DNA from: an uncultured Phascolarctobacterium sp.
GTDB taxonomy: Bacteria; Bacillota; Negativicutes; Acidaminococcales; Acidaminococcaceae
Length of the DNA stretch: 64,000 bases
NCBI GenBank assembly: GCA_949299135.1
Contig: CASFZG010000002.1
Location: forward strand, 1 to 64,000
Reading direction: 5' to 3'
Below, piece by piece: positions 14,034 through 33,284 of the stretch. The translations under genes were made by a program, and so were the position numbers. How positions within the stretch are numbered: position 1 is the stretch's first letter; every line of letters begins with the position of its first letter. The notes under the pieces were generated by a model. It had not been told where the DNA came from and searched no databases. It saw only the letters and a program-made list of their open reading frames with translations.

Positions 14034-14046
14034 GGAGGAAAGGTAA

Positions 14047-15435: not shown

Positions 15436-15439
15436 TATT

Positions 15440-15475: not shown

Positions 15476-15572
15476 AGAGTAAATACAAACTATATACCTA
15501 AAAAAACAGTCTATAAGCGCAAAATTAAAAACGTAAAATATGAGAAAATTAAATATAGAGGTGAGAATAGCC

Positions 15573-15803
15573 GTGTTTGCAATGCGATACAAAATGATAG
15601 GCTTAAAAATTGCATATTACCGCAAGCTTCGCGGCTATACACAAGGGCAGCTGGCAGGCAAAATCGGCATAAGTACAACTTATCTGGGGCAGATAGAACG
15701 CGGCAATAACGGAAAAAGTTTTTCGCTGGAAACTTTGCTTTTAATCGCCACAGGGCTTGATGTTGAGGTGGATTTACTGCTGCGTTGCAACGAAAATGTT
15801 TAA
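15573..15803 (+). CDS. XRE-family transcriptional regulator
   Basis: A 76-residue single-domain helix-turn-helix regulator. The segments MIGLKIAYYRKLRGYTQGQL and GKIGISTTYLGQIERGNNGK form a canonical Cro/CI helix-turn-helix, and a C-terminal helix (LETLLLIATGLDVEVDLLL) follows. The start is taken as GTG at 15573, which has GAGGTG 9 bases upstream; ATG at 15582 is the alternative. A longer reading from 15540 passes through that ribosome binding site and is unlikely. It resembles the XRE gene at 13182 in size and plan. Confidence 0.85.
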   Translation: MFAMRYKMIGLKIAYYRKLRGYTQGQLAGKIGISTTYLGQIERGNNGKSFSLETLLLIATGLDVEVDLLLRCNENV

Positions 15804-15923
15804 AGCACTTAACTTATATTAAATTTTAGTTTTGTGAAGGTAATTAAGCATAGATTGTAGAATAATATAAAAGCTAATTATATTTTGGGGATATTTAGTA
15901 CAGTAGCTAACAATTTAATTTAA

Positions 15924-15955
15924 ACATAGCCAATATGCTGGCTATGTAGTTTTGT
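15924..15955 (+). terminator. Terminator-like hairpin with ATAGCCA core
   Basis: ACATAGCCA / TGGCTATGT (15924-15947) with a 6-base loop is followed by GTTTTGT. The ATAGCCA / TGGCTAT core recurs in hairpins at 32276 and 32696. Confidence 0.7.
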
Positions 15956-15993
15956 ATGATGTAAACATATAAAACCATACCGGAAGGTTGAGC

Positions 15994-16959: not shown

Positions 16960-16982
16960 TATTTGGGATTGGAGAAATCAAG

Positions 16983-18074
16983 ATGAATAAAGTAAAAGAA
17001 ATATTAAGAAACATAGAACCTGATAGCTATGGCAACTATTTTTACTGCCATTATGGTTTGCGTCAAGTTATGGGAATGCTATATGATGCTGCGGATGGTA
17101 CAAGCAAAGATGAATTGGCCGACTGGAAAATAGAAAATCAGTTTACTCAAAGTAATGAAACATTATTAAGCGGTAACTTATTAATGATTAATAGAAATAA
17201 CGGAGTAAAAATTAATCCGGAGTACGATAAAAAACTTCAGATAAAATATAGTGCTAAAAGCTTATTTTATAATGACAATAACCTCAAAAATATAATAAAA
17301 GAAGCTAATGATTTTGTAGAAGAACATACAGGTGGGCACATAAAAAATGCAGTTAATGAAGATAACTTAAAAGAAGCGGCTGCGATAGTAACTAATTCTG
17401 TTTATTTTTACAGCAAATGGTCAGAAAAACTTAAAGAAACTGGCAACATCTTGTTTTCATTAACCCAAAATAATGAAAAAGAGGTTGTTGCAGTAAAAGG
17501 TAAAACCAATAAATATATTTCGAACGAAAAGGTACATGGATTTAGTTATGCTTACTCAGATAAAAGGTATAGTTTCATAGCATTAATGCTTAAAAATGAA
17601 GATAAAAAATTTAGCTGGCAGGATGTTCCAAATTTAGAGAAATTTGAAGAAACAGTAGAAGATAAAGGTTCTATTTCTAATAATGGTGAAATTACAGAAT
17701 CCGGTAGTACAAAAATAAATAAAAAAGAAGTCCATTTTACTATGCCAAAGTTTAAGGTAGATGCAGAAGTCAACTTTGATGAAGCATTAAAAGCTCTGGG
17801 TATAAAAAGTATATACGGGACAAATGCAAATTTATCTAAAGGTTTTTCCTGTTACAACGGTTTGTATTTAAGCACTGTTAACCAAAAAAGCGGCATTCTC
17901 GTAGATGAAAATGGAACTGAAGCGTGGTCTTTTTTGTCTGGAACTGCGTTTTCTAAAACGATGATAGAAGCTGTTCAATTAACTTTTAATAAACCTTACT
18001 TCTTTATGGTATATGACAAGGTTGATGAGCAGCCGGTATTTGCTGGAATTATTAATAATCCGCGGTGGGAATAA
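16983..18074 (+). CDS. Serpin-family protease inhibitor, no signal peptide
   Basis: A 363-residue serpin. The family signatures are in the C-terminal third: the breach and hinge segment VDENGTEAWSFLSGTAF and the final NKPYFFMVYDKVDEQPVFAG, which matches the serpin signature near the C-terminus. Upstream, EAAAIVTNSVYFYSKWSEK corresponds to strand 3A. The length is normal for a single serpin domain. The hinge is less alanine-rich than in classical inhibitory serpins, so inhibition is uncertain. There is no secretion signal, which is unusual among gut-bacterial serpins. GGAGAAATCAAG precedes the ATG. It lies 23 bases after the WYL gene. Confidence 0.85.
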   Translation: MNKVKEILRNIEPDSYGNYFYCHYGLRQVMGMLYDAADGTSKDELADWKIENQFTQSNETLLSGNLLMINRNNGVKINPEYDKKLQIKYSAKSLFYNDNNLKNIIKEANDFVEEHTGGHIKNAVNEDNLKEAAAIVTNSVYFYSKWSEKLKETGNILFSLTQNNEKEVVAVKGKTNKYISNEKVHGFSYAYSDKRYSFIALMLKNEDKKFSWQDVPNLEKFEETVEDKGSISNNGEITESGSTKINKKEVHFTMPKFKVDAEVNFDEALKALGIKSIYGTNANLSKGFSCYNGLYLSTVNQKSGILVDENGTEAWSFLSGTAFSKTMIEAVQLTFNKPYFFMVYDKVDEQPVFAGIINNPRWE

Positions 18075-18128
18075 ATTGTAATGTTATTGTAGTTATGTGA
18101 AAAAGTCAATGATAGAGGTGATTGATAT

Positions 18129-18290
18129 ATGTCTAATTTCAGAAGACCAAGTCCTGATGAAGTAAAGAGAAATAAGGAATGGAAAGAAAAAATGAAAAAA
18201 ATCATTATGGATGATCCAGAACTTTCTATATTTGAAAAATTAAAAAAGATTCACGAATTAGATTCGATGGATAAAATAATTAAATATTAA
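18129..18290 (+). CDS. Small charged hypothetical protein
   Basis: A 53-residue ORF with GAGGTG 8 bases before the ATG. The product starts MSNFRRPSPDEVKRNKEWKE and is rich in Lys, Glu and Asp, with predicted helices and no hydrophobic segment. I do not recognise a family. It lies between the serpin gene and a small membrane-protein gene in the same orientation, so it may belong to one short operon. Confidence 0.55.
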   Translation: MSNFRRPSPDEVKRNKEWKEKMKKIIMDDPELSIFEKLKKIHELDSMDKIIKY

Positions 18291-18313
18291 TTTCGTTAAA
18301 TGTGGTGATAAAA

Positions 18314-18541
18314 GTGTTAAAAATTTTATTAATTATTTTTGTTATTGCCTTAATAATTTTTGGATTTTCATTTTTACTTGGTGCTTTGTCAATTATTATG
18401 AATGCTTTAGGTGCTATATTTGTATTTATATTCGCCGCTATAAAAGGAATTTTTGCCATAGGATTTTCTAAATTATTTTCAACCGTTGGTTTAGTAGCAT
18501 TAGTTATTATTGTACTATTTATTTACTTTTTGAAAAAATAA
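18314..18541 (+). CDS. Small hydrophobic membrane protein
   Basis: A product of about 75 residues, nearly all hydrophobic, with two or three transmembrane helices (ILLIIFVIALIIFGFSFLLG, then a Gly/Ala-rich middle and LVALVIIVLFIYFLKK). The GTG at 18314 is preceded by GGTGAT; GTG codons at 18302 and 18305 are alternatives. No family is recognised. The Gly-rich centre and charged C-terminus resemble small pore-like or toxin-like membrane peptides, but there is no direct support for that. Confidence 0.55.
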   Translation: MLKILLIIFVIALIIFGFSFLLGALSIIMNALGAIFVFIFAAIKGIFAIGFSKLFSTVGLVALVIIVLFIYFLKK

Positions 18542-18568
18542 ATGTTAATTTTGAAGAGGATGATATTT

Positions 18569-18694
18569 ATGAGAATAGATTTAGCAAAGTACTTAGATAA
18601 TGTTAATAAAGAAATAACTAAATTAAACAATAATGAGAATGAAATATTAATAGTAAATGCAGGATTTATAAACGGCTATCAGCAGCTAATTTAA
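18569..18694 (+). CDS. Very small hypothetical protein
   Basis: A 41-residue ORF preceded by GAAGAGGATG, with the ATG at 18569. The product begins MRIDLAKYLDNVNKEITKLN and is Asn- and Leu-rich. It ends just before the WYL remnant and may be a truncated gene whose 3' end was lost in the same rearrangement. Confidence 0.4.
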   Translation: MRIDLAKYLDNVNKEITKLNNNENEILIVNAGFINGYQQLI

Positions 18695-18699
18695 TATAA

Positions 18700-18930
18700 A
18701 TTTGAAGAAGTCGAGTTTTTCAAACGTGTACAGTTTATGTATGACGGCAAGCTTCAAAAATAAAGTTTTGGTATACAGATCTTTCGATATAAGTTGTTTT
18801 AAATTGCCTGCCAACAACAAAATATTACAAATGTTGATAAGATCTACTTAATTAGCATTGAAGTTTTTGGCAAAGGCATGATTGCGGCTGAGAAGCCAGT
18901 ATGATATAGTTAAGGTAGTGGAGATAAACC
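18700..18930 (+). pseudogene. Remnant of a WYL regulator gene (3' end)
   Basis: This stretch is a decayed copy of the last 220 or so bases of the intact WYL gene (16736-16959). Matching blocks include GAAGAAG-TCGAG, CAGTTTATGTA, ACGGCAA, AAAGTT-TGGTAT, AAAATATT and GAAGTTTTTGG. A one-base deletion and an in-frame TAA at about 18761 break the reading frame. Translated blocks such as RVQFMYDGKLQK and EVFGKG match the intact protein. It lies directly upstream of the helicase operon. Confidence 0.85.
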
Positions 18931-19070
18931 AATAATTTAATAATAATTGATAAAGGTAAAAAATGTTTTTTGGAAAATGATAAAAATAAGATAAGGAAAT
19001 GACTAACCAATATTTATAATTGTCAATTCTAATATAAAAACGAATACAATGTTCAGATTGGAGAAATAAT

Positions 19071-22000
19071 ATGGCTATAATTTTTGATGACATTATTTGG
19101 GCAGACTGGGGTTTGAAAAGAAATGCCACTAATTTATCTAACTCACAATATAAGCCTGCTAAACCAGATGATATAGAGGATGATAATGGGAATTATTATG
19201 ATAGTCATACTCTTGATATTGCCGATGAGGAAATTGATAATACTGATTTAAGTTATACAGACAAGAATATTTGTATTAAATTAAATAATAAAAATATTAC
19301 TAGAATCAATAAAAGCGAAAAAGTTCTGTGCGACAAATTTCCGAAGCTGAGGGAAATACCGTCAGGGGATCGGATGAATATGATTTTAAAAGGATTGTTT
19401 CTGGAAGGTTGTAGAAAGCATATGTATATCCGCAATCTTACTTTCACACATCAAAGTGATGGTTTGGATGTAAAAATGCTTGGTATTAGACCAGAAAGAA
19501 CGCCTGGAGATTTCCTCGATGGCTATATTCCCAATGATGTTTCCTTATTGTTCAAGGGTTATATTTCAGGAAAAGTATTTATTGTCAATTCGATTCATGA
19601 AGTTGCAAATACTGAACAGTTAGATTTTGAAGCCGATGTAGTTGCAATTCCATATGAAAATCCAGAAATGATTCGCAGCAATTTTCTGTATGATATTCTG
19701 GATAATGCTGGTTCCTTGACGGAGTACACCGGAGAGAAACTTGAGGAATGGAAAGAATATTTGCAATGGAAGATGGAAGTGGCTAAACGGCAGATTTATG
19801 GTTGTAAATACTACAAAGTTGCTTTTGATGATGTTAGAAAGCGCTTGAATTTTTGGTTGGTTTTTGAGAATAAAGATACATTTAGTGCTTTCCGAAAGTA
19901 TCTTGGCAGAGATATTCAAGTCTTTGATAATAACTATTCCAAAGATAAGTGGCATTTTGATTTTGCGGGCGACATCAATAACAAACGTCAAAGATTTAAT
20001 AGCGTAGAACTTGGACGATATAAGGGTGTTGTCAGTGAATACTATTTAAAGGACAATGCTACATCCTCTGACAAAGGTAAGAATTTGACAGGGGAAGATA
20101 TGCATCTTGCATATAGCCTGCAGAGCGAAAGTAATTATTACTTTGACGATTCTGAAGAAGATGATGACGCGGCTTCCGAGCAAGATCTTTATGATGAGTT
20201 TGATAATCCTTACATTGTTCAAGTTGCATACGAGCTCAACAGAAAAGATATTGATGAAATAAATCGCCTTAACTTGGATGATGAGAGTATTTCACAATAT
20301 GTTCATGAGTATGTCTTGGGGAATTACTATTCAAATGGATTTCTTGCATTGTCAGCTATTGGTGATTTTGTTTTAATACATAGATTTCAACAAGCTATTC
20401 GGCAGCTTGAAATGGATGAATGCTATTCTCCAAATCTTGCGATGTGGCTATTTAATGTTGCAAGAGCTCGTATTCCGGGTGATGGAGAGAATGTTTCTGT
20501 TGATCAATGGCTCAATCCACATATTGCTAAAAATGAAAATCAAAAACAAGCCGTTTACAAGATGCTGTCTGCGCCGGACCTTTGCTTAGTGCAAGGACCT
20601 CCTGGTACCGGAAAAACAACGGTTATTGCAGAAGCCATATATCAATTTGTAAAAAAAGGATACAGAGTACTTGTAGCTTCTCAATCGAATGATGCGGTTG
20701 ACAATGCGTTGGAACGACTTGCAGATACTCCGGTAATTCGTGCTATAAGATTAGGGCAGAAAGGAAAGCGAAAACGCAGGATTGATGATCTTAGTACAAG
20801 AAAATTTTCTGAAGACGAGGCCTTAAAATACTACTATAATGCTCTCGCTGTCCAAGTATCTAAGAATTGGCTTGACGCTTGGGACGCTCTTGAAAAAAAC
20901 GGTGCCTTGTACGATAAGGACATCCGCGATGCGAAGATGTTTAACTATGATATAGCTGAATTGAACAATGAACTTATATCTCTTAATGATAGCTATGGAA
21001 ATATACGCCGTAAATTAGATGATATTTCCAAAGAATTTTCTGATGCCAATAATTTTAACACTTCTTTGGAAAATGATAAGCAGCAGTTTAGGATTGCTGA
21101 AGATTGCTTTATCGGTAAAAAAGAGATTCCATTCTATTTTTCTGAATCTATGGTTCGCATTTGTGAAGATGTGTTAAACAGTTTAATTGAAAGTACAATT
21201 CAAAAAGGTGTATATATAGCGCCTAAAAAACTTGACCTTGATGATATGGGACTTGGCAAAGAGCAGGCGTGCATTGTTTTAATCGCAAAAAATCTTACGA
21301 TTCTTGAGAACTTTGTAAAGAAGCTTCGAGAAAAAGTAGGGGCAGATAGCTCCGCTGATGGTGAAATGATGATTCTTACCAGCCAGTTACAGGAAGAACA
21401 GAAGAAACTTATAGAATATATTACTACTGAAGATGAAGATGGCGAGGCTGAATGCAAAAAGCAAATAAAGGTGCTTAAGAAAAGAATTGATGAACTTAAG
21501 TTTTCTTCATCAATCGTTGATGTTTCCAGTGATGAAGAAGATATTTTGTCTAAAGAAATGCTTTCTTCCATTTCTGCTGATACCACAAGTAGTACTTTTG
21601 ATTTGTTAAGTAAAATTATTTCAGAATGGACTATGACTATCCAAAAGATGCTTAAACAGATCAAGTGTGAGCTTTCCAATAGACAACCCGTAGATATTTC
21701 TGATATTTCGAATAGACAGAAAATTGCTGAAATTGAATTGGATTCAGTAAATGAGAATATCAAGAATGTCAAAGGTCAGATTGTCAGCAAACAGCAGACT
21801 TTGCGAAAATTACGTGAAAAGTATTCAATTGACTCAACAAATGCAAATGAGATTGTTGAACATATACAGCGGCTTAAGGAGGAGAATATTCAGAAGTTAC
21901 ATAACCAAAAAAGTTTCAGAGATGATTGGGAAAAAACATTACGGTCTTTTAAAGAACGTTTAGTTGATGAAGATGCGTTTAAATATGATAAAGAGTATTA

Positions 22001-23174
22001 TCAGAAATTCTATATTAACGCTTGCAATGTTGTAGGTATTTCTTGTACTGACAATATGCGTAATCTAACCGATAATGGATATGATGACTTTGATGTTGTC
22101 ATAATAGACGAAGTAAGTAAGGCTACACCGCCTGAACTGTTAATTCCGTTGATGAAAGCAAGAAAGGCTATTTTGGTCGGAGATCATAGGCAACTTCCTC
22201 CTATGTTCAAAGAACATGAAGGGTCATACAAGGAACTTGTTGAGAGTGAGTATGATACGCCTGAAGAAGTGCGTGATTTGCTTACTGAGGAAAACTTCCG
22301 TAGATTCCGAAAGATGGTCACAGCGTCTTTATTCAAAGATTATTTTGAACAGGCTGATGATAGAATTAAGCATTCTTTGTTAGTCCAATACCGTATGCAT
22401 ACGGATATCATGGACATCATCAACAGATTTTATGAGCAACGTCTTTCTTGCGGCCTTTCAGAAGATGTTGAAAACATGGAGAAAAGCCACGGGTTGACAA
22501 TTAAGGGAGTTGATGGAAGCACTTTTATCGTACCTGACAGACACGCATATTGGATTGATTCCTCTTATACACCTAGTGGTAAAGCTATTTACGAGATTCG
22601 GCCTCATAACAGCACTTCAAATTACAATGTATTGGAAAAATTCATTGTTATGGAATTGCTCAAGAAGATTGCAGATACTTATAAGGAACAAGGGTATGGT
22701 GGCGTCAACAGAAAAACAATAGGGGTTATTAGTTTTTATCAAATGCAGGTGAATGAACTTCGAGAAGCATTTAGAGAAGCCAAAAGAACTTACGACTTTT
22801 CTGCGATAGATGTCGATATCAATACTGTTGATAGATTCCAAGGTAAGGAAAAAAATATTATAATTACCTGCTTAGTTAGAAACAACAGGAGTAGAAAAGC
22901 AAGTAAGCATGTTGTTGCTTTTGAAAGAATCAATGTTGCTTTTTCGAGAGCACAGGAACTTTTGTTTATTGTAGGAGCAAAGGATATGTACGAAAACCAG
23001 CAAGTTCAATTGCCCAATATGGATATGCCTGGATTCAGGACAGTTCCCGTTTATAAGAATATAATTGAGACTTTGAATCGAAAAGGTTGTTTTAAGTCCT
23101 GCAACAAACTTATTACGCCTCAACTTGAAGCAAAAGTTATTGATGAATACATCGAGAACGGAGGCAGGTTATGA
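19071..23174 (+). CDS. SF1 (Upf1/DNA2-like) helicase with long insertion
   Basis: A 1367-residue protein. Residues 1-470 are an uncharacterised N-terminal region with an acidic stretch. The helicase core has Walker A GPPGTGKTT (about 508-516), Walker B VVIIDEVSKATPPEL (about 1009), motif III VGDHRQLPPMF, motif V VDRFQGKEKNIIIT and motif VI ERINVAFSRAQELLF. Between motifs I and II lie about 400 residues of mostly coiled-coil sequence, much larger than in typical AAA_11/AAA_12 helicases. The gene overlaps the PIN gene by 4 bases and heads a five-gene operon. The RBS segment GATTGGAGAAAT also precedes the serpin gene. Confidence 0.88.
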   Translation: MAIIFDDIIWADWGLKRNATNLSNSQYKPAKPDDIEDDNGNYYDSHTLDIADEEIDNTDLSYTDKNICIKLNNKNITRINKSEKVLCDKFPKLREIPSGDRMNMILKGLFLEGCRKHMYIRNLTFTHQSDGLDVKMLGIRPERTPGDFLDGYIPNDVSLLFKGYISGKVFIVNSIHEVANTEQLDFEADVVAIPYENPEMIRSNFLYDILDNAGSLTEYTGEKLEEWKEYLQWKMEVAKRQIYGCKYYKVAFDDVRKRLNFWLVFENKDTFSAFRKYLGRDIQVFDNNYSKDKWHFDFAGDINNKRQRFNSVELGRYKGVVSEYYLKDNATSSDKGKNLTGEDMHLAYSLQSESNYYFDDSEEDDDAASEQDLYDEFDNPYIVQVAYELNRKDIDEINRLNLDDESISQYVHEYVLGNYYSNGFLALSAIGDFVLIHRFQQAIRQLEMDECYSPNLAMWLFNVARARIPGDGENVSVDQWLNPHIAKNENQKQAVYKMLSAPDLCLVQGPPGTGKTTVIAEAIYQFVKKGYRVLVASQSNDAVDNALERLADTPVIRAIRLGQKGKRKRRIDDLSTRKFSEDEALKYYYNALAVQVSKNWLDAWDALEKNGALYDKDIRDAKMFNYDIAELNNELISLNDSYGNIRRKLDDISKEFSDANNFNTSLENDKQQFRIAEDCFIGKKEIPFYFSESMVRICEDVLNSLIESTIQKGVYIAPKKLDLDDMGLGKEQACIVLIAKNLTILENFVKKLREKVGADSSADGEMMILTSQLQEEQKKLIEYITTEDEDGEAECKKQIKVLKKRIDELKFSSSIVDVSSDEEDILSKEMLSSISADTTSSTFDLLSKIISEWTMTIQKMLKQIKCELSNRQPVDISDISNRQKIAEIELDSVNENIKNVKGQIVSKQQTLRKLREKYSIDSTNANEIVEHIQRLKEENIQKLHNQKSFRDDWEKTLRSFKERLVDEDAFKYDKEYYQKFYINACNVVGISCTDNMRNLTDNGYDDFDVVIIDEVSKATPPELLIPLMKARKAILVGDHRQLPPMFKEHEGSYKELVESEYDTPEEVRDLLTEENFRRFRKMVTASLFKDYFEQADDRIKHSLLVQYRMHTDIMDIINRFYEQRLSCGLSEDVENMEKSHGLTIKGVDGSTFIVPDRHAYWIDSSYTPSGKAIYEIRPHNSTSNYNVLEKFIVMELLKKIADTYKEQGYGGVNRKTIGVISFYQMQVNELREAFREAKRTYDFSAIDVDINTVDRFQGKEKNIIITCLVRNNRSRKASKHVVAFERINVAFSRAQELLFIVGAKDMYENQQVQLPNMDMPGFRTVPVYKNIIETLNRKGCFKSCNKLITPQLEAKVIDEYIENGGRL

Positions 23175-25630
23175 TTATATCCGAGGTTATAATGTCTTAC
23201 CCTTGCATAAAATACGAGGTTGAGGTTTCTCATTTTACTGAGAGGAAATCTACGGCGATAGAATGGGTCATTCTTGAAGCAATCAATAGATGTAATGTAT
23301 TAACTCAGTATGAAGGCGTTTCAATATCTGATTTTTTTAAGAGTATTTTTACTATTTCAGATGCAGATTTATTAATTCGGCCTTGTTTGCTTGCCCTTCA
23401 CGATATGGGAGCAATTAACATTTCAGGCATTGATAATGAAACTGAGTTATCAACGGTTCCTATGAGAAATTTACAGCTAACTAAAATTGGCAAAGAGTTG
23501 CAGATGCAAGGGCTTCTTCCTGGTACTATTGCAGAAGATACTTTTACGATTTATTATGATTTGATAAACAGAACCCTTATAAAAGATACACGACTGTATC
23601 AAGAAAATGCAACCGGTATTAAAGTGATGGAGACTGATGAAACCGAAAGTGTTGAGTTCCCATATTCTGCAATCCGTGAATGGCTTAGTTCCATTCAACA
23701 GAACAATAGAAGAACAGAAATGAACTGGCTATATCCTACCACCAAAATTCAAGATATAACTTCGCTTGAAGCAGATGTTTTATGGAAAAATACAGTTAAA
23801 AAGATTGACTTAACTTATGGAATGCAATGGCGAGTTGTGGACGAAGAAAATGAGGAATTTCATGAGATTTCATTAAAAGGTGCAGAGCTTTCTTGCCCTG
23901 ATGAAATGAAAAGTCTGCCTAAACTTGATATCGTAGATCCTGATGACGAAATCGAACAATTTGTTCCTGTGTCAGAAGTTAACGCTTTTGTTGGAAATTA
24001 TCAACGCAAAGATGACCTGTTTTGTATTAATAAAAAATATTATACAGAATTAAGAGCAGACCAGCTAAGCAAAAGAAAAAAATTAAGGGTGGGTTTTGTT
24101 TTCGGAGCAGACTCTTTTAAGGTAGAAAGTAAAGGAAAACAGTTAATCATCTGGATTCCGGAAAGTATTGGCAGCAATGTTCTTTATAGAAATGATAAAG
24201 CTGTTGTTCAAGCCGGAATCATCACTGTATATGCAGGTAGTACGGCTAAAAATATGGCAATAGCTTACGTGCCAAAGACCTGTCAACTCAACAACTTAAC
24301 TGAAGAATTATTGCCTTATGTTGAGAAGTATTATGAGCAAGAAAACAGTATCCTTTTTGTTCTTGTCGAAATTGGATTAAAGGACTTGTTTCTTGAGTAT
24401 GTTGAACGTCTTGTAAAAAAAGAAGAAACTATTAGTAAAAAAGCTGAAATAATTGATTTGCTTAACTACAAAAGCAACGGCTACTATAATCAAAAGCTGA
24501 TATCTTCTTCGGATAAGGAGCGGTTTATTCTTGATGTTGGATATATACGAGAACGCTGCAATAGTATCAATGATGCTATATCTATTCTTGAAGAATATTC
24601 TTCCGTTACATCACTGCTACGAGAAGAAGGCATTATTCAGAGAGTTATTCAAACTATTGTTGATATCATTGGAGAAGTAAATGATTTGAATGATATTTGG
24701 AGTCTTTGGAATGCCATTGAAAAAATTAAGAGATCACACATCACTTGGATTAACAAAACTGGTATATACAAAAGAGTATACTCAAATACCGGTATTTCTG
24801 ATTTGTTTGAGAAGTTTAAAGATGATGAAGTTTTTAACATTAAAGAATATACAGCAGTGGAACAAATCTTTCTTAATATGAAACGGATTTATATTCGTAT
24901 CCAAGAATTCCTCCCGGAATTTGATATGTATTCTCATGCCAGCAACGAAAAGTATAATGAAATCGTGATCAAGCATATGGATAGCCTCAGTAACTTGTAT
25001 GACGAAATTCGACAGTGGAAAGACGAAGAAGAAAAGTTCAGCAATAAAGTTCTTGATATCAAAGACTTTATTCGCCCCGGCACTTCTTTCGCAAATGTCA
25101 AGGCTAATGTTGATGGTTTGTGTAGTGCATTGGCTAGCTACTTTGATGATTCTTTCATGAAGTACAATAAAGTTTACATTATTGATACTTGCACGCTGAT
25201 GCACGCGCCAGGGGTGATTTCTTGGTTTGACGGAGAAAATGCATTGCTCATTGTTCCAATGATTGTTCTTGATGAACTAGATGATAAAAAATCATCTGAT
25301 GATGAGGACGAAGCATTTTGCGCAAGAGCTGCCATTAGAAATATAAATAATTATCGTTCATATGAATGGATCAATGTTGGCCAGAATAGTTATCCGGAAT
25401 TATTATCTGATGATTTAGATAAAGAACGTAATGATAATAAAATCCTTTCTATTGCATTGCGGTATAAGATAAAAAATCCAATCATCTTAACAGATGATAT
25501 TAATTTGGGAAACATTGCTGACGGCTATAAAATCAAAAGTATGACTCTTAAATCGTATAGGGCTATGAGAGAACATGCAAAACTTACTACAAAAGTCAAT
25601 GGAAAGAAAAAGCAAAGAAAGAAGAAATGA
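23171..25630 (+). CDS. Large protein with C-terminal PIN nuclease domain
   Basis: An 819-residue protein. The last 140 residues are a PIN-type ribonuclease domain with the acidic residues in place: YIIDTCTLMH, VPMIVLDELDD, NDNKILSIALRY and ILTDDINLG. The N-terminal 110 residues look like a winged-helix module (AIEWVILEAINRCNVLTQYE, then a MRNLQLTKIGKELQMQGLLPG end). The middle is unassigned and partly helical, and the C-terminus is a Lys-rich tail. The start ATG overlaps the helicase stop (ATGA) and has GGAGG 6 bases upstream; ATG at 23201 is an alternative. Coupling to a helicase suggests cleavage of unwound RNA or DNA. Confidence 0.8.
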   Translation: MIISEVIMSYPCIKYEVEVSHFTERKSTAIEWVILEAINRCNVLTQYEGVSISDFFKSIFTISDADLLIRPCLLALHDMGAINISGIDNETELSTVPMRNLQLTKIGKELQMQGLLPGTIAEDTFTIYYDLINRTLIKDTRLYQENATGIKVMETDETESVEFPYSAIREWLSSIQQNNRRTEMNWLYPTTKIQDITSLEADVLWKNTVKKIDLTYGMQWRVVDEENEEFHEISLKGAELSCPDEMKSLPKLDIVDPDDEIEQFVPVSEVNAFVGNYQRKDDLFCINKKYYTELRADQLSKRKKLRVGFVFGADSFKVESKGKQLIIWIPESIGSNVLYRNDKAVVQAGIITVYAGSTAKNMAIAYVPKTCQLNNLTEELLPYVEKYYEQENSILFVLVEIGLKDLFLEYVERLVKKEETISKKAEIIDLLNYKSNGYYNQKLISSSDKERFILDVGYIRERCNSINDAISILEEYSSVTSLLREEGIIQRVIQTIVDIIGEVNDLNDIWSLWNAIEKIKRSHITWINKTGIYKRVYSNTGISDLFEKFKDDEVFNIKEYTAVEQIFLNMKRIYIRIQEFLPEFDMYSHASNEKYNEIVIKHMDSLSNLYDEIRQWKDEEEKFSNKVLDIKDFIRPGTSFANVKANVDGLCSALASYFDDSFMKYNKVYIIDTCTLMHAPGVISWFDGENALLIVPMIVLDELDDKKSSDDEDEAFCARAAIRNINNYRSYEWINVGQNSYPELLSDDLDKERNDNKILSIALRYKIKNPIILTDDINLGNIADGYKIKSMTLKSYRAMREHAKLTTKVNGKKKQRKKK

Positions 25631-25641
25631 GGTGAACAGCT

Positions 25642-26772
25642 TTGAGCAGATCTTATGAATATTCCTATGCTTTAGAAGCGGCTATAAGAAGAAAAATTTA
25701 TTTGAACAGAATAAGTTCAAAAACGGAGCAGTTTTATTCTCGCTATTTGGAACAGTATAACCGAATGAAAAAAGATGGGGTTGCTGCCTATATTCCAGAC
25801 GAAATGAATCGCTTGGAATCGGATCTGTCCCGTATTAGAACTTTGCTTATATCTGACCCGGAAGAAGCTAGGGAATTGAGTTATACTGTAGGGTCATATA
25901 TTAGAAGTATGTCGTCTTTGGCATCCGTTGCCAGAGAAGAGTTTGACCGTGCCGAACGGCTTAGGGTTGAGAATATGAGGATTGAGCGTCAACAGCATCA
26001 AAGTGAACTGGTTCAAGCGTACTTTGAAATACTGAAAAGTATAACCAATTCTATTGTTGTTAATTATTCTGCGTTGGGTTTGCAAGATTTAAAGAAAAAA
26101 ATTGATACTGGCATTTTAACCGACAAAGCTGAGCTTATAGCAAGGGCAAAGGCTATTATTGCAAATGCCGAAAAAATGGCGGATGAATGGAAGTCCAAGA
26201 CCATCAACAGTAACAGACGAACAAATGCTGTTGAGATAATCAATGATACGGAAGCAAGGTTAAGAAACGAAAATATTGAGGATAAAGAAAAGACACAACA
26301 ATTCTTGGATAGAATAAATCAGTTACGTTCCGGACTTGCCAATGGAAAAATTGATGTCGAAGCTGTCGAAAAACAAATTAATGCTTTAGAAAATGAAGTG
26401 GATGATACGCATATTACAGAAGAAACAAGGAGGGAAACCGTCAAGGCTATTATAAAGCTGCTTAGGAGCCAAGAGTTTACGGTCGAAAAACCTCAAGTGG
26501 TTCAAATGGAGGGAAAAAATTATGTAAAAATAGTTGCAAAACAGCCTTCCGGTAAAAGAGCCATTTGCAATATTGATTTACATGGGAAAATTGCTTACAA
26601 ATTTGATAACTATGAAGGAATGACTTGCTTAAAGGACATTGAAAAATTTAATGTTGACTTGCAGCAAGTGTATTCAATAAAACTTTCTGATGAAAGAGTG
26701 CTGTGGAGTAATCCGGATAAATTGGACAAGGATGTGAACAGTACACCCAATACCGATAGGAGGAGTAAATAA
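25642..26772 (+). CDS. Coiled-coil protein of the helicase operon
   Basis: A 376-residue, largely helical protein with long coiled-coil stretches (about residues 20-130 and 180-260). A C-terminal globular part of about 110 residues begins near RREAVKAI-like text and contains VEKPQVVQMEGKNYVKIVAK and ICNIDLHGKIAYKFDNYEG. No family is recognised. TTG is the start, with GAGGTGA 5 bases upstream. It begins 11 bases after the PIN gene and overlaps the AAA+ gene by 1 base (TAATG), so it is a fixed operon member and may be the scaffold of the complex. Confidence 0.7.
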   Translation: MSRSYEYSYALEAAIRRKIYLNRISSKTEQFYSRYLEQYNRMKKDGVAAYIPDEMNRLESDLSRIRTLLISDPEEARELSYTVGSYIRSMSSLASVAREEFDRAERLRVENMRIERQQHQSELVQAYFEILKSITNSIVVNYSALGLQDLKKKIDTGILTDKAELIARAKAIIANAEKMADEWKSKTINSNRRTNAVEIINDTEARLRNENIEDKEKTQQFLDRINQLRSGLANGKIDVEAVEKQINALENEVDDTHITEETRRETVKAIIKLLRSQEFTVEKPQVVQMEGKNYVKIVAKQPSGKRAICNIDLHGKIAYKFDNYEGMTCLKDIEKFNVDLQQVYSIKLSDERVLWSNPDKLDKDVNSTPNTDRRSK

Positions 26773-28613
26773 TGGCAGAAATGAATATATGGCTTGAGCG
26801 TTTTAATAGAGATATAGGTTACAAATCTTCGGTTATTGTATTTGGTAACACATCTGATATTATGCTCAATCCTAAAAACTTTGGAAAGTATGATAAAGTT
26901 ATTGACACACTTATTGCATATGTTCGTGATAAAGGTTACAAGCAGATTGTTAAGTGGGACAGAGTTGATGGAATTGACTATTCTGTATCAGATGAAATTA
27001 TAAACGCTAATCCCGACAATAACGTTCCGCAGCAATCGAATAATTCCGATTACGACCTTGGCGAAGATTTTGATGTGAGTTCTACAGCTCAATATGGGAA
27101 TACATACAAAAATCCGGACGAATTCTTTCCCTATATGCTGAGCGTAATAAAAAATGGTTCCAATAAAACAGCATTTGTTTTGGATTATTCAGATTACCTT
27201 TTTGGTAACGCAAATTCACTTTCTGAAAAAGAGAGATACTATTTAACAACTCTCGGCAAGATATTAGAGTCCAGCCAGTCTTATAATATGCTTAAAAGTG
27301 ACTTTGCATCGGTTGGAAATATCGTTATTATCGTTGCGAAAAACAATGCTATGATTCCCCCGGCATTTTATCTCAATAACTCCATGGTAAGTTCTGTAAA
27401 TGTTCCAATGCCGGGACATCATGAAAGAGAACACTTTATCGAATTTAATATGGCTTGTTTAAATATCAGCCAAAACATTATGGCTGATAAAAATGCTAAA
27501 GATGATTTGATCGATGCTTTGGATGGGTTCACTCTTAGAGATATTGCGCAGATGATAAAACTATCTCGTCAGATGCCTGAAAAACTTTCTTTCGAGAAAT
27601 TGATTAACCTCTTTAAGTACGGTGAAAAAGTGAGCCCTTGGGAGGAACTGTCAAAGGATAAAGTTGAAAGAATTGAGGAAGAACTTAGTAAGCGAGTGAA
27701 AGGTCAAGATGAAGCTATTTCTAAAGTAAAAGATGTTATAATCAGAGCCTATACAGGATTTTCTGGTTTGCAGCATTCATCTAAGCAGAAAAAGCCTAAA
27801 GGAATACTGTTTTTTGTTGGACCTACCGGTGTTGGTAAAACAGAACTAGCAAAGTCTCTTGCAGCATTTGTATTTGGTGATGAAAATGCTTGTATACGAT
27901 TTGATATGTCTGAGTATAACCATGAGCATAGTGACCAAAGATTGGTTGGAGCACCTCCTGGATATGTAGGTTACGAAGCCGGTGGACAGCTCACAAATGC
28001 CGTCAAAGAAAAACCTTTTTGCGTTCTTTTGTTTGATGAAATTGAAAAAGCCCATGGAAGAATTCTTGACAAGTTTCTTCAGATTTTGGAAGATGGTCGA
28101 TTAACTGATGGCAAGGGTGAAACGGTTTACTTCTCTGAAACAATCATTATTTTTACATCTAATATCGGTGCCGCTGAAGTTAGTGCAGATTTGAGCCCGA
28201 AAGAGGTGAAGAAGCTTTTTGTTAAAAAGGTGCAAGAGCATTTCATCACAAAACTCGGAAGACCTGAGTTGTTGAACAGAATTGGCGATAATATTGTTGC
28301 CTTCAATTTCATTGATGATCCAGAAGTATTTACAAAGATTGCAAAACTCAAATTTAAAACTATTGAAGAGTTTGTTAAAGAACGTTATGGTGCCAAAATT
28401 GTGTTTGAAAAAGAAGATGCTATTTTTATGGCTATTGGTAAAAAAGCCGAAAAGAAAGATGGTGGACGTGGATTGCTTAATGTGATGGAAAGTGTTATTA
28501 TCAACCCTCTATCTGAGTTTATATTTGAACGCTCTAATATGATTAGAAACAGACAAATAGTTATTAAGCCACTTTTTTTGGATAAACCAGAATTTGACTT
28601 TGAATTAAGGTAG
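26772..28613 (+). CDS. ClpB/ClpA-like AAA+ ATPase with degenerate first module
   Basis: A 613-residue AAA+ protein. The C-terminal module (about 300-613) is ClpB-like AAA-2: GPTGVGKTELAKSLA (Walker A), FDMSEYNHEHSDQRLVGAPP pore-loop region, CVLLFDEIEKAH (Walker B), FTSNIG sensor and RPELLNRIGD with the arginine finger. The N-terminal 290 residues look like a second AAA domain that has lost its P-loop. They keep a Walker B-like strand (KTAFVLDYSDYLFG), a sensor-1-like strand (GNIVIIVAKNN) and a sensor-2-like helix (FTLRDIAQMIKLS). No N-terminal Clp repeat domain is present. It probably remodels or unfolds a partner of the operon. Confidence 0.85.
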   Translation: MAEMNIWLERFNRDIGYKSSVIVFGNTSDIMLNPKNFGKYDKVIDTLIAYVRDKGYKQIVKWDRVDGIDYSVSDEIINANPDNNVPQQSNNSDYDLGEDFDVSSTAQYGNTYKNPDEFFPYMLSVIKNGSNKTAFVLDYSDYLFGNANSLSEKERYYLTTLGKILESSQSYNMLKSDFASVGNIVIIVAKNNAMIPPAFYLNNSMVSSVNVPMPGHHEREHFIEFNMACLNISQNIMADKNAKDDLIDALDGFTLRDIAQMIKLSRQMPEKLSFEKLINLFKYGEKVSPWEELSKDKVERIEEELSKRVKGQDEAISKVKDVIIRAYTGFSGLQHSSKQKKPKGILFFVGPTGVGKTELAKSLAAFVFGDENACIRFDMSEYNHEHSDQRLVGAPPGYVGYEAGGQLTNAVKEKPFCVLLFDEIEKAHGRILDKFLQILEDGRLTDGKGETVYFSETIIIFTSNIGAAEVSADLSPKEVKKLFVKKVQEHFITKLGRPELLNRIGDNIVAFNFIDDPEVFTKIAKLKFKTIEEFVKERYGAKIVFEKEDAIFMAIGKKAEKKDGGRGLLNVMESVIINPLSEFIFERSNMIRNRQIVIKPLFLDKPEFDFELR

Positions 28614-28620
28614 GTAAGGT

Positions 28621-29187
28621 ATGGGGTATCTTAATATTGCCTCCGTGAGATTGTGCACGGAGGCAGAAGGACCTGGAAAACGCTTTGCTATATGGGTACA
28701 AGGGTGCAAAAATCGTTGCCCAGGTTGCTGCAATCCTGAAATGCAAAAAATAAAAGTAAACATCATAGTTGATACAGCAGATGTGATAGAACTGATTAAA
28801 ACTGCAAAAGAACAGTTCGGTGTCGAAGGGGTTTCTTTCATTGGCGGAGAGCCAATGCTTCAAGCACTGGGGTTAGCTGAAATTGCGGAATGGTGCCAAT
28901 CAGCAGGATTATCGGTGCTTGTTTTTACAGGATATTTATATGAGGATTTAAATTCAACTAATGATGTCTCCATCAAACGGCTGCTTGATAACACTGATAT
29001 ACTGGTTGACGGTCCGTTTATACAAAATGAATATGATGATAAACGTGATTGGGTAGGATCAAAAAATCAAAAGGTATTGTTGTTGAGTGACCGATATGAA
29101 CCGGGAGTAGAATTCAAACATAGTCAAAGAATTATGGAGGTTCTTGTGTCTGAGGACAGTATTTGCATTAATGGTTGGCCGTTTTAA
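28621..29187 (+). CDS. NrdG-like radical SAM activating enzyme (operon 1)
   Basis: A 188-residue radical SAM protein of the class III reductase activase type. The cluster motif CKNRCPGC places Cys29, Cys33 and Cys36, and the SAM-binding strand is FIGGEPM (about 73-79). The length is slightly above typical NrdG. It begins 7 bases after the AAA+ stop and is the last gene of the helicase operon, although another NrdG-like gene with its own reductase follows 133 bases later. It could activate that reductase or another glycyl radical protein, or modify a substrate of the operon; none of these is shown. Confidence 0.82.
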   Translation: MGYLNIASVRLCTEAEGPGKRFAIWVQGCKNRCPGCCNPEMQKIKVNIIVDTADVIELIKTAKEQFGVEGVSFIGGEPMLQALGLAEIAEWCQSAGLSVLVFTGYLYEDLNSTNDVSIKRLLDNTDILVDGPFIQNEYDDKRDWVGSKNQKVLLLSDRYEPGVEFKHSQRIMEVLVSEDSICINGWPF

Positions 29188-29230
29188 TCTTGTATTCTTA
29201 TTGCAAATTATTATCTTATATTTATATAAA

Positions 29231-29269
29231 ATAGTCTAAAGCTATACTAAATGTACAGCTTTAGACTAT
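29231..29269 (+). repeat. Strong palindrome between the two operons
   Basis: ATAGTCTAAAGCT / AGCTTTAGACTAT is a perfect 13-bp inverted repeat with a 13-base loop. No T-run follows, so it may be a poor terminator, a processing site or an operator for the next operon. Confidence 0.6.
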
Positions 29270-29320
29270 CATTAATAAGTTTGACTTGTTTGGAGAAAGA
29301 AAGTACGAGGAACTAAAAAT

Positions 29321-29788
29321 ATGAATTTAAAAGTTGGAGGTTTTATTGAAACAAGTGCAGCAGATGGACCAGGAATTCGAAGTGTTTTGTTTCTTCAAGG
29401 GTGTCACCGAAATTGTGAAGGATGTCACAATAAAAAACTACAAAATCCTGATGGTGGAGTTTTACTCAGCATAACTGAGGCAGTGGAATACATCAACAAA
29501 CACTGCCAAAACAAAAAACTTACAATATCCGGTGGTGAACCGCTAGAGCAACTGCCTGCATTGATTGAGTTAACCGAGCTGCTAGTAAATATGAGGTTTG
29601 ACCTATGTGTCTATACCGGCAATAATTTAGAAGATGTTCCGTTATTGCTGAGAAAAAATCTTCATTGGCTGAAAGTTGGTAATTTTCGTGTCGACCAGCG
29701 AACCTTGACAAAACCTTTTGTTGGTTCATCTAACCAAAATATGATAGAATTAAACAAAAAGAGTGAGGACTGTTATGCGAAAACATGA
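29321..29788 (+). CDS. nrdG: NrdG-like anaerobic reductase activase (operon 2)
   Basis: A 155-residue radical SAM activase. GPGIRSVLFLQGCHRNCEGC places the cluster cysteines at 28, 32 and 35, and SGGEPLEQLP is the SAM-binding strand. Size and motifs fit NrdG, which generates the glycyl radical of class III ribonucleotide reductase. The 3' end overlaps the start of the reductase gene by 14 bases. It is A+T-rich like its neighbours, which suggests an accessory copy rather than the housekeeping nrdG. Confidence 0.87.
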   Translation: MNLKVGGFIETSAADGPGIRSVLFLQGCHRNCEGCHNKKLQNPDGGVLLSITEAVEYINKHCQNKKLTISGGEPLEQLPALIELTELLVNMRFDLCVYTGNNLEDVPLLLRKNLHWLKVGNFRVDQRTLTKPFVGSSNQNMIELNKKSEDCYAKT

Positions 29789-31460
29789 ACGTGAATTAGC
29801 AAACTGCGAAGAAAATGCTTCATCGAGAATTATTCAGTTGGGTGAACAGGTGAAAAAAAGCCGTCTGTCTTCTGTAATTCCGCCGTGGTTGTATGAAATG
29901 CATGAAAAGTGTCAATTCCATATCCACGATATGGAATTTTATGATATTACTTATAACTGCATCGGTGTAAACCCATCTGATTTAATTGTATCCGCATCAA
30001 ATTTTCATGACGCTATTCTTAAATTGGCGTATGGGATTACAGCTTTAACTAATCAGCAGTCTGGTGGAATTGGATTTATAGACTTTGATGGAGATTTATC
30101 TAAATATATTGATAGTGAATCAGAGTATGATATCCAAAATGAACTTGTTACATTACTTTCACTTTTAAACTTTCCATTACGTAAAGGATGTGAAAAAGCG
30201 TATGTTACATTTAATTTTGGCCTATGTACAACAGAAAAAGGAAGACTACTTACTAGATGTCTATTAAACGCATATAGAAAAAGCGGACAGGCTTTTCCCA
30301 ACCTAGTGTTCAAAGTTAAAGGAAACATTAATCACTGTATAGGTTCTCCAAATTATGATCTGTTTAGGTTGGCCTGCGAAGTTACAGCAGAATGTATGAA
30401 TCCTACTTACTTAAATATGGATGCAACATTTAATAGAAATTTCGATCCAGACAGCTTTGGAATTATGGGTTGTCGCACTCGTATAGGTGAAAATCGTTTT
30501 GGTAAGAGTGGCTCTCTACATCGTGGCAATATTGCCGCGATATCAATTAATCTGGTTCAAATTGCTGCAAGAAACATAGGTAATTTACCTGCTTTTTACA
30601 AAGATCTGTCTTGTGTAATGCTGAATGCAATGGAGCTATTATTGCACCGTTTTAACACTCTCTGTCACTCAGAAAAGGCAACACTTACTCACCTCCAAAT
30701 AGGATGTCTCTATCAAGGATATGATAAAGGGAATAACGCAGATATGTTGAAGAACGGTACGCTCTCTATTGGGTTTATAGGGTTATGGGATGCTGTTATG
30801 ATGTTATTTGGTTTAGCTAAGTTCCCTATAGAAGAATTAGAAAAATGGCGAGATTTAGGGTTGAAAATTGTTCATAAGATGCGTAATTTGACAGATCAGT
30901 TCGCTGAAGAAAATCAGTTAAACATCTCGCTATTGGCTTCTTCTGGAGAAGGAATTTCGGGACGCTTTCCGCAGCATGATATTGTAAACGATATTCATAC
31001 TGCATATGTAGCAAAAAAAGGTTTTTACACTAACTCTTTTCATGTTCCTGTAGATATTGCAGTAAATTGTTTTCATAAAATTGATTTAGAGGCACCATTT
31101 CATAACATATGTAATGGTGGTCACATTACATATGTTGAACTTAATGAGATACCAATTGGAAATAGCTCTGCTATTCAGGATTTAGTTGATTATGCTATAT
31201 CTCAGAATATTGGTTATTTTGGTGTGAATTACCCTTTGGATATTTGTTCTTCTTGTGGTGCGAAGGGAACATTTGCTAAATTCTGCCCAATTTGTGGTAA
31301 TGAACATATTAAGCGTTTGCGCCGCGTGTCTGGATACTTGTCTGAAAAGGATTCTTTTACCGTTGGCAAACAGTCTGAGCTTTATTGTCGTACTGCTCAT
31401 AATGGATACTCTGATTTCAAAAATTATAGATTAGGCAACAGGAGACCTGAAAAGGAATAA
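29775..31460 (+). CDS. nrdD: Class III (anaerobic) ribonucleoside-triphosphate reductase, short form
   Basis: A 561-residue glycyl radical reductase that makes dNTPs from NTPs. Visible active-site features are the N-terminal cysteine in YNCIGVN, the radical cysteine in IMGCRTR, RGNIAAISINL, a C-terminal zinc site (CSSCGAKG then CPICG) and the glycyl radical loop RVSGYLSEKD. Full-length NrdD is usually about 700-780 residues; this one lacks the N-terminal ATP-cone, so overall allosteric control by ATP/dATP is probably absent. The ATG at 29775 has GTGAGG upstream and overlaps nrdG; a GTG at 29763 is less likely. An accessory copy next to a helicase/nuclease operon is unusual. Confidence 0.88.
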   Translation: MRKHERELANCEENASSRIIQLGEQVKKSRLSSVIPPWLYEMHEKCQFHIHDMEFYDITYNCIGVNPSDLIVSASNFHDAILKLAYGITALTNQQSGGIGFIDFDGDLSKYIDSESEYDIQNELVTLLSLLNFPLRKGCEKAYVTFNFGLCTTEKGRLLTRCLLNAYRKSGQAFPNLVFKVKGNINHCIGSPNYDLFRLACEVTAECMNPTYLNMDATFNRNFDPDSFGIMGCRTRIGENRFGKSGSLHRGNIAAISINLVQIAARNIGNLPAFYKDLSCVMLNAMELLLHRFNTLCHSEKATLTHLQIGCLYQGYDKGNNADMLKNGTLSIGFIGLWDAVMMLFGLAKFPIEELEKWRDLGLKIVHKMRNLTDQFAEENQLNISLLASSGEGISGRFPQHDIVNDIHTAYVAKKGFYTNSFHVPVDIAVNCFHKIDLEAPFHNICNGGHITYVELNEIPIGNSSAIQDLVDYAISQNIGYFGVNYPLDICSSCGAKGTFAKFCPICGNEHIKRLRRVSGYLSEKDSFTVGKQSELYCRTAHNGYSDFKNYRLGNRRPEKE

Positions 31461-31462
31461 AA

Positions 31463-32044
31463 ATGCATATTGCAATCGAAGGATTAGACGGTGTTGGAAA
31501 AACACAAACTGCTAAATTGTTGGCAAAACAGTATAATTTTACCTTTATTGAAAAACCATTGCATTATCTAACAGATACTGATGGAATGGAAAACTACCTT
31601 CGTATGATGAAGTACATCAATAAAGAAATGGATGATGATTTTAAAGCTTTATACTATGGACTTGGCAATCTATATCTGAGCAAAATTTCAAAAGGAACTA
31701 ATGTTGTGACTGATCGGCATCTTTGTTCCACATATTTTTGGAATCATACTGCGAACAATCATATTTTATTTGACTATCTGGTGCAAACAGCCGGTCTTCC
31801 AGATTTGACCGTTATACTTTTTGCCGATGCCGAAGTGCGTCGACAACGTATGTTGGAGCGCAGTGCTAGCGATACAGATTTAGTAGAAAAGGTTTTTCCA
31901 AATAATCAATATAAGAAAATGATTGAGTTTGTTAAAAATTATGGAGCAAACTTTGTTATTATAGACAATTCCGATAAGACTTTAAATGAAACGGTTCAAG
32001 AAATTGCAAAAATAGCTGGATTAAAGTATGTTGAAATTTTTTAA
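31463..32044 (+). CDS. Thymidylate kinase-like (d)NMP kinase
   Basis: A 193-residue P-loop kinase. GLDGVGKTQTAK at residues 7-18 is the tmk-type Walker A, DRHLCSTYFW is the DR motif that binds the monophosphate, and RRQRMLERSASD is a LID-like arginine region. The closest activity is dTMP to dTDP phosphorylation, but the acceptor base cannot be read from sequence. It starts 2 bases after the nrdD stop. With nrdG and nrdD it forms a compact deoxynucleotide-supply operon, separate from the cell's normal tmk. Confidence 0.82.
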   Translation: MHIAIEGLDGVGKTQTAKLLAKQYNFTFIEKPLHYLTDTDGMENYLRMMKYINKEMDDDFKALYYGLGNLYLSKISKGTNVVTDRHLCSTYFWNHTANNHILFDYLVQTAGLPDLTVILFADAEVRRQRMLERSASDTDLVEKVFPNNQYKKMIEFVKNYGANFVIIDNSDKTLNETVQEIAKIAGLKYVEIF

Positions 32045-32056
32045 CTTTAGTACCCA

Positions 32057-32257
32057 ATGTATATGTATATACAAACAGATAACGTGGATATTAATGTTAA
32101 TTTATGCAAAGACAGTTGTTTAAAATTAAAAGCTGAAACTGGATATATAATCAACCAATGCCATAAAGGTAAAGATAAAGTAATAAATAAACTGATTTGC
32201 AAAAGTAATAATGGCGGACAATTATGTAAGTTAAGTATTGAAAATTTTATTTTTTAA
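32057..32257 (+). CDS. Possible small cysteine-containing protein
   Basis: A 66-codon ORF with four cysteines and no clear ribosome binding site, located between the kinase and a terminator. It reads as a coherent polar peptide but has no recognised family. It may be a chance ORF or a decayed gene. Confidence 0.25.
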   Translation: MYMYIQTDNVDINVNLCKDSCLKLKAETGYIINQCHKGKDKVINKLICKSNNGGQLCKLSIENFIF

Positions 32258-32275
32258 TAATATGATTAAATTTTT

Positions 32276-32309
32276 GAGATAGCCAGTATCTGGCTATCTC
32301 ATTTTTTAT
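32276..32309 (+). terminator. Terminator with ATAGCCA core (operon 2 end)
   Basis: The 10-bp stem GAGATAGCCA / TGGCTATCTC with a 5-base loop is followed by ATTTTTT. It is the second member of the three-copy hairpin family. Confidence 0.82.
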
Positions 32310-32374
32310 ACTATAAATACAAAGAAGGTTAATCGTCTAAACGATTAAATATATTGAAAGTGAGGTAATTCATT

Positions 32375-32683
32375 ATGGCATTTCCAATCGCATGGGCAGT
32401 AGGTAGTTTTGTAGGTGGGCTTTTGGCAAAAGAGTTTTATGATGATGTTATTGCCGATAACTATGAAGATGACGAAGAAGAAAAAGATGATTATAACGAT
32501 GAGGTTATTGCTGCGCTGTTTAAAAAGCTTTTAAAGGCTAATGACGCCCAAGGTTTATATGACTTTGGTTGTATTTTGGAAGCTGGGAATAAAGAATGGG
32601 CAAGAACTTTTATTAAGACAGCGGCCAATATGGATTTTATGCTTGCACAGCAAAAGCTCCGCTGCATGGATGCAGAAAATTAA
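32375..32683 (+). CDS. Small hypothetical protein with acidic linker
   Basis: A 102-residue protein. A Gly-rich hydrophobic N-terminus (MAFPIAWAVGSFVGGLLAKE) is followed by a strongly acidic stretch (residues 31-44, mostly Asp and Glu). A helical C-terminus with a tetratricopeptide-like feel (AQGLYDFGCILEAGNKEWAR) follows. GTGAGG precedes the ATG. It is isolated between two ATAGCCA hairpins, so it is its own transcription unit. No function is recognised. Confidence 0.6.
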   Translation: MAFPIAWAVGSFVGGLLAKEFYDDVIADNYEDDEEEKDDYNDEVIAALFKKLLKANDAQGLYDFGCILEAGNKEWARTFIKTAANMDFMLAQQKLRCMDAEN

Positions 32684-32695
32684 AAACTGGTAATT

Positions 32696-32731
32696 AAAAC
32701 AGGATAGCCAAATACTGGCTATCCTGTTTTC
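32696..32731 (+). terminator. Terminator with ATAGCCA core
   Basis: The 15-bp stem AAAACAGGATAGCCA / TGGCTATCCTGTTTT is the longest of the three related hairpins. A TATAAT box lies within 10 bases downstream. Confidence 0.82.
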
Positions 32732-32758
32732 TATAATGTAGGAAAAGGGGGATTGAAA

Positions 32759-32938
32759 ATGTTTTATGCTTTGTGTGTTTCGGTGTGTACGGCGGTAATG
32801 TATGCTTTGGTAAAATGTTTTTGTTGGCAGTATCGTGGGCAAGCGTTGATATTTTTATTGGCAATTACTTCCGTTATCTTATTTGGATTATATAATTTAC
32901 CGGATAATTCGTCGCTCGCAAAAACGCTGTTCGGGTAA
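32759..32938 (+). CDS. Tiny membrane protein A
   Basis: A product of 59 residues with two transmembrane helices (FYALCVSVCTAVMYALVKCF and ALIFLLAITSVILFGLY) and several cysteines. The ribosome binding site AAGGGGG lies 7 bases before the ATG. It is the first of three consecutive tiny membrane-protein genes. Confidence 0.6.
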   Translation: MFYALCVSVCTAVMYALVKCFCWQYRGQALIFLLAITSVILFGLYNLPDNSSLAKTLFG

Positions 32939-32940
32939 GG

Positions 32941-33051
32941 ATGAAAGTAATGGAGTATTTTGATAAGGAAGATTTTATAGTGCTGGCTTGTTTGGCGCAG
33001 ATATTTTTAGTTATTTTTCAAGTTATGTATTTGAAAGGGATAACGATTTAA
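32941..33051 (+). CDS. Tiny membrane protein B
   Basis: A 36-residue product with one transmembrane helix (IVLACLAQIFLVIFQVMYL). The ATG lies 2 bases after the previous stop, with GGGTAAGG overlapping that stop. It ends just before the next ribosome binding site, so the three ORFs look like a compact operon. Confidence 0.5.
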   Translation: MKVMEYFDKEDFIVLACLAQIFLVIFQVMYLKGITI

Positions 33052-33065
33052 AAGGGGGATTAGTG

Positions 33066-33248
33066 ATGACTAAGTTGGAGATTATTTTTATAACCGTGAT
33101 GTTTATTGCTGCTGTTATCAGTTTTTTGCAGACGCATTGGTTTATGGCGATGTTGATTGTTGCATTGTTTGGCATTGTGCTGTGGTTGCTGTATGCACTT
33201 TTAAGCAATATAAATCTTTTTGTGATACCGTTGCTTTTATGGCGGTAA
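33066..33248 (+). CDS. Tiny membrane protein C
   Basis: A 60-residue product with two or three hydrophobic helices (IIFITVMFIAAVISFLQ and MAMLIVALFGIVLWLLYALL). An AAAGGGGGATT site precedes the ATG. No family is recognised. It closes the three-gene string and faces the Fic gene across a shared terminator. Confidence 0.55.
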   Translation: MTKLEIIFITVMFIAAVISFLQTHWFMAMLIVALFGIVLWLLYALLSNINLFVIPLLLWR

Positions 33249-33257
33249 ATAACAAAA

Positions 33258-33276
33258 GGCAGCCTGAAAGGCTGCA
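33258..33276. terminator. Hairpin between convergent genes
   Basis: GCAGCC-TGAAA-GGCTGC lies between the tiny membrane-protein string and the Fic gene and has AAAA or ATTTG flanks. Confidence 0.6.
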
Positions 33277-33284
33277 TTTGTGCG

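Follow-up and report, generated by a model that had tools for sequence, protein, structure and literature searches.

Three adjacent genes of an uncultured gut bacterium, Phascolarctobacterium sp., coding for a radical SAM activase (NrdG), a class III ribonucleotide reductase (NrdD) and a nucleotide kinase, probably represent, on balance, a horizontally moving accessory module for dNTP supply that is shared with phages. A gut phage and scattered, unrelated microbes carry this kit with its gene order unchanged, which argues for a travelling module and not for a household gene or a part of the adjacent defence-like operon. The genes lie in positions 1-64,000 of the forward strand of contig CASFZG010000002.1 (assembly GCA_949299135.1), a stretch of 64,000 nucleotides referred to here as the window (Table 1). 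As judged from its sequence, the trio most likely functions in the manner of phage-type class III reductase sets, here joined by a nucleotide kinase, and would supply dNTPs without being shut off by dATP.

Table 1. Positions of the trio and of the surrounding features in the window
Feature	Position	Strand	Remarks
NrdG-type radical SAM activase	29321..29788	+	155 aa; CX3CX2C motif
NrdD, class III ribonucleotide reductase without ATP-cone	29775..31460	+	561 aa
NMP kinase, thymidylate-kinase fold	31463..32044	+	193 aa; related to PADLOC VakA and PDC-M51B
Inverted repeat between helicase operon and trio	29222..29278	.	26-nt arms, 81% complementary
Probable intrinsic terminator of the trio	32275..32307	+	Perfect 12-bp stem, 3-nt loop, T6
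Variable AT-rich hotspot holding the trio	13417..33277	.	Beside tRNA-Leu (34133-34219); genus mates with other genes here
Helicase operon, separate from the trio: MkoA-like SF1 helicase, PIN-domain protein, 376-aa protein, ClpB-like AAA protein, NrdG-like protein	19071..29187	+	

Gene content and reductase motifs

The open reading frames and their ends agree with the trio located at 29321-32044 in the preliminary description, including the gap of 2 bases between NrdD and kinase. Each gene is intact and has a ribosome site and its motifs. Translation of nrdD may begin at GTG 29763 (565 aa) or at ATG 29775 (561 aa), the latter having the better ribosome site. The terminator downstream of the kinase was called for its perfect stem, the count of the terminator scanner being at chance level. 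The NrdD matches the whole Pfam NRDD profile (2e-101, positions 3-562 of 562) and scores above the TIGR02487 cut-off. The NrdG matches Fer4_12/NrdG in Pfam (3e-23) and TIGR02491 (4.7e-22), below the cut-off of the latter. The kinase matches Pfam Thymidylate_kin (2e-16) and reaches 53 bits with TIGR00041, whose curated cut-off for dTMP kinases is 83.25 bits; both NrdG and kinase thus remain under the NCBIfam equivalog cut-offs. As in class III reductases, the NrdD adjoins a radical SAM activase with a CX3CX2C motif. Whole-profile matches and motifs together rule out a chance resemblance or a mis-annotation of the trio.

The catalytic cysteines, zinc site and glycyl radical loop previously claimed for the NrdD are all present. 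Numbered from GTG 29763 and positioned by alignment to the T4 and Prevotella NrdDs, they comprise Cys66, an MGCR finger loop (Cys237), Asn256, the zinc cysteines 495, 498, 508 and 511, and Gly524 in RRVSGYL. The MGCR sequence is a marker of the single-cysteine, formate-using NrdD subclass (PMC9669993). The protein is also, as described, devoid of an ATP-cone: at E<=0.01, PF03477 was detected neither in the window NrdD nor in five NrdDs of related trios, whereas both other NrdDs of the same genome, serving as positive controls, match at about 5e-23. Having no N-terminal PF03477, the window NrdD does not belong to the ATP-cone-regulated NrdDs, and dATP feedback is probably absent. The T4 and T. 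maritima NrdDs likewise have no ATP-cone (PMC11226230), so that a cone-less NrdD as such is not new.

Relatives of the trio and phylogeny of NrdD

The proposal that such a trio is phage-like was borne out by NatCom_17901 (PV036423.1, 57 kb, human gut, Ca. Heliusvirales), the best phage match, whose genes XTK82703-XTK82701 code, in the order of the window trio, for an NrdG, a cone-less NrdD of 564 aa and a kinase, with 38-42% identity to the window proteins. Besides one viral contig (L037), a search with a kinase alignment returned 13 loci of bacterial or archaeal genomes. A cone-less NrdD precedes the kinase wherever the contig is long enough, and NrdG nearly always precedes NrdD, a few loci being cut by contig ends or having no called NrdG. 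We name this arrangement the NatCom-type trio cassette, defined by the order NrdG, cone-less NrdD of about 560 aa and TMK-fold kinase and by a single NrdD clade; the window trio has both. Its proteins are only 38-50% identical to those of any trio relative (38-47% for NrdG). Retention of this order in bacteria, phages and an archaeal MAG whose proteins share about 40% identity suggests a coupled function under selection.

Phylogenetic trees were built from 44 rows and from 28 rows on better-filled columns. The window NrdD and 14 trio NrdDs, drawn from loci found through the kinase or as the phage hit, form one side of a branch with support 100/99; as the MAG loci were chosen by their kinase, the grouping of the NrdDs is not circular. 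This clade includes NatCom_17901, one viral contig, and Clostridia, Bacteroidales, Bacilli, Myxococcota and Heimdallarchaeota MAGs. Constrained trees placing the window NrdD in the housekeeping group (origin from the host's own nrdD) or among the T4-like phage NrdDs (T4-like origin) were rejected, with p-AU of 0.018 and 0.017, respectively, noting that the window NrdD sits on a long branch and that the tested clades were named after the first tree had been seen. One of the closest known systems is that of T4 (NrdD/NrdG), with a phage-linked cone-less class III reductase, a single-cysteine formate-type finger loop and a dNMP kinase, the product of gene 1. However, the T4-like NrdDs stand on another branch, the T4 genes are not gathered in one tight trio and the T4 kinase comes from another family.

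Most trio loci carry additional genes. A metallophosphoesterase (174-188 aa) was found in eight of them, and a BspA-type LRR protein and an N6/N4 DNA methyltransferase lie downstream in most; NatCom_17901 likewise has an LRR protein and a DNA methyltransferase after its kinase. The window holds the core trio only, with no phosphoesterase, LRR_5 protein or N6/N4 DNA methyltransferase. The last two are also absent downstream of the trio in L040, one of the two nearest kinase relatives, where a U32 peptidase-type protein, a SAM methyltransferase and a PLP decarboxylase-like protein are inserted between NrdD and kinase. The LRR and methyltransferase are sometimes fused (L044:6008-8413, L045:10563-12980, L051:10564-12987), and the LRR may be the target-recognition part of the fused enzyme. 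A small gene of about 135-157 aa with a KCGHVG motif immediately precedes NrdG in seven of the MAG trio loci and, judging by the motif, in the phage as well (e.g. L048:6848-7321, L045:6870-7334, L035:7009-7413).

Viral carriage amounts to one phage record and one viral contig, and most trio loci lie on bacterial contigs with no clear phage structural gene in the vicinity, so that a role in virus replication is not the sole reading. In scans of viral contigs, neither the window NrdD nor a two-row alignment retrieved anything, and an 11-row alignment recovered only the L037 contig again. No LRR-methyltransferase was found in viral contigs, no kinase was found on plasmids, and megablast of L048 and L050 against phages gave no useful match. 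MT835921 (H19) was discounted as a source of a phage NrdD, since the contig reads as a bacterial fragment.

Genomic setting of the trio

A family-by-family search of the same genome revealed nrdD and nrdG pairs on contig 15 and contig 1, both with an ATP-cone, as well as a normal dTMP kinase (contig 12); the trio is consequently a third, accessory set. The window nrdD is thus neither the sole copy of the genome nor, by its position with the phage copy in the tree, a member of the housekeeping group, in agreement with the accessory status initially suggested. Full-length trio-type NrdDs measure about 552-575 aa, whereas the cone-bearing copies of the same genome have 651-708 aa. The closest NrdD of the genus mates belongs to the housekeeping type (about 37% identity), and these genomes lack the kinase. 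The housekeeping NrdD of the class (PRK07111 type, here on C1) belongs to the same reductase family and shares most catalytic motifs, but it has an ATP-cone, forms a separate clade and, in this genus, misses the glycyl loop.

Indeed, the housekeeping nrdD at C1:119838-121415 (-) (L002), 651 aa with its ATP-cone, covers positions 1-534 of 562 of NRDD and ends just before the glycyl-radical loop. A separate 93-aa protein at C3:91349-91627 (-) (L004) corresponds exactly to the missing loop (NRDD 533-562). It was found in 6/6 genus genomes searched and matched in 85 of 150 relatives, a count that includes some full-length NrdDs matching by their ends; its gene directly adjoins the truncated nrdD in several f15 genomes. 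No NCBIfam family names it. By their sequences, the two genes read as a split or spare-part class III reductase.

The trio is located in a variable hotspot, bounded by core genes and the tRNA-Leu, whose GC content is 0.33-0.40 versus about 0.52 in the flanking core genes, and whose strain-specific part spans about 18.9-32.2 kb. Three genus mates (G001, G003, G005) carry other genes at this site, neither the helicase operon nor the trio. The preliminary description also considered a phage-derived leftover. A decayed prophage remnant with no present function would be consistent with the phage-borne copy, the missing phosphoesterase, LRR and methyltransferase partners and the tRNA-side hotspot. 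It is nevertheless quite unlikely: the three genes are intact, with their ribosome sites and motifs, neither integrase nor phage structural genes were recognised around the trio, most relatives are on bacterial contigs, and the near relative L040 has no LRR or methyltransferase either.

The preliminary description further suggested that the trio may supply or alter nucleotides for the adjacent helicase operon. The two are neighbours on the same strand and both contain an NrdG-like gene; the operon does end in such a protein (at 28621), a constant member of the five-gene unit that is 26% identical to the trio NrdG. This NrdG-like member has no glycyl-radical partner within the operon. A working partnership of trio and operon is however highly improbable, as each occurs without the other. 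The five-gene operon, conserved as a unit in several genomes of the class, is complete but not followed by a trio in G373, G299 and G122, and none of the 14 other genomes or records with a trio has the operon PIN protein. The operon AAA gene was found in 12 other genomes of the class, only one of which has the kinase, on another contig and with no adjoining NrdD. The two loci are also separated by a hairpin, the inverted repeat of Table 1, which may split them into two transcription units.

Kinase and possible role of the module

The AlphaFold2 model of the kinase (pLDDT 90) has thymidylate kinases as best PDB matches (TM about 0.7), and the modelled fold is TMK-like. The thymine-binding motif of TMK is AYQ; as read by eye, it is seemingly not conserved here. 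Matches to PADLOC PDC-M51B (1e-19) and VakA (4.5e-17) span the whole length of the protein. In contrast to viperin-associated VakA, the trio includes no viperin, the radical SAM enzyme that makes ddhNTP: the radical SAM protein of the trio is NrdG, its match to pVip is only 1e-5 and partial, and the kinase is partnered with a full reductase instead. The literature searched contained nothing on PDC-M51 or on an NrdG/NrdD/kinase cassette of this type. A kinase relative without NrdD was observed at L082:10614-12909, on a contig with cas1-like genes, and is preceded by ORFs read by eye as a 701-aa histidine-kinase-like and a 536-aa response-regulator-like protein.

These defence-related matches raise the possibility of an anti-phage defence or a phage counter-defence, in which an unregulated reductase and a viperin-associated-like kinase would make altered nucleotides or refill dNTP pools drained by nucleotide-depleting defences. 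Such a role would accord with the location of the trio in a hotspot next to an MkoA-like helicase operon, with the isolated kinase relative just described, near cas1-like genes of G308 as read by eye, and with the rarity and patchy spread of the kinase, found in 2 of 380 genomes of the class and in 1 of 398 genomes of a phylum sample, namely the window's own. It would also accord with a HEPN/MNT-like pair, identified by motif and by eye, near the cassette in the phage and in L050. This homologous pair, HEPN-like (RNHTMH) plus nucleotidyltransferase, resembles a toxin-antitoxin system (L050:5693-7004, phage L035:4312-5581). A role in defence or counter-defence is conceivable but less likely, because the trio has no viperin or known defence system, the NrdD active site is complete and ordinary, and the usual partners include a DNA methyltransferase but no recognised restriction nuclease.

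For the accessory supply module, we infer the following activity. NrdG, with SAM and an iron-sulphur cluster, would put a radical on Gly524 of NrdD, which would in turn reduce ribonucleotides, most likely with formate as expected for the MGCR type. The TMK-fold kinase would convert a deoxynucleoside monophosphate to the diphosphate. In the absence of an ATP-cone, dATP should not shut NrdD off and the module would push dNTP synthesis, presumably while a mobile genome replicates anaerobically. That a DNA methyltransferase is often among the partners fits the care of an element for its own replicating DNA. The window copy is a divergent, core-only version, probably placed in the accessory-gene hotspot by horizontal transfer. 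A broader, rather unlikely reading is that the trio forms the core of an undescribed cassette that an archaeal MAG and distant bacteria share with gut phages. In conflicts between phage and host, its unregulated anaerobic reductase, VakA-like kinase, phosphoesterase and LRR-linked DNA methyltransferase would jointly change DNA or nucleotide pools.

Overall, the accessory supply module takes a concrete form, a cone-less NrdD with a VakA-like kinase, often with LRR and DNA methyltransferase partners, that may allow mobile elements to increase the dNTP pools of strict anaerobes.
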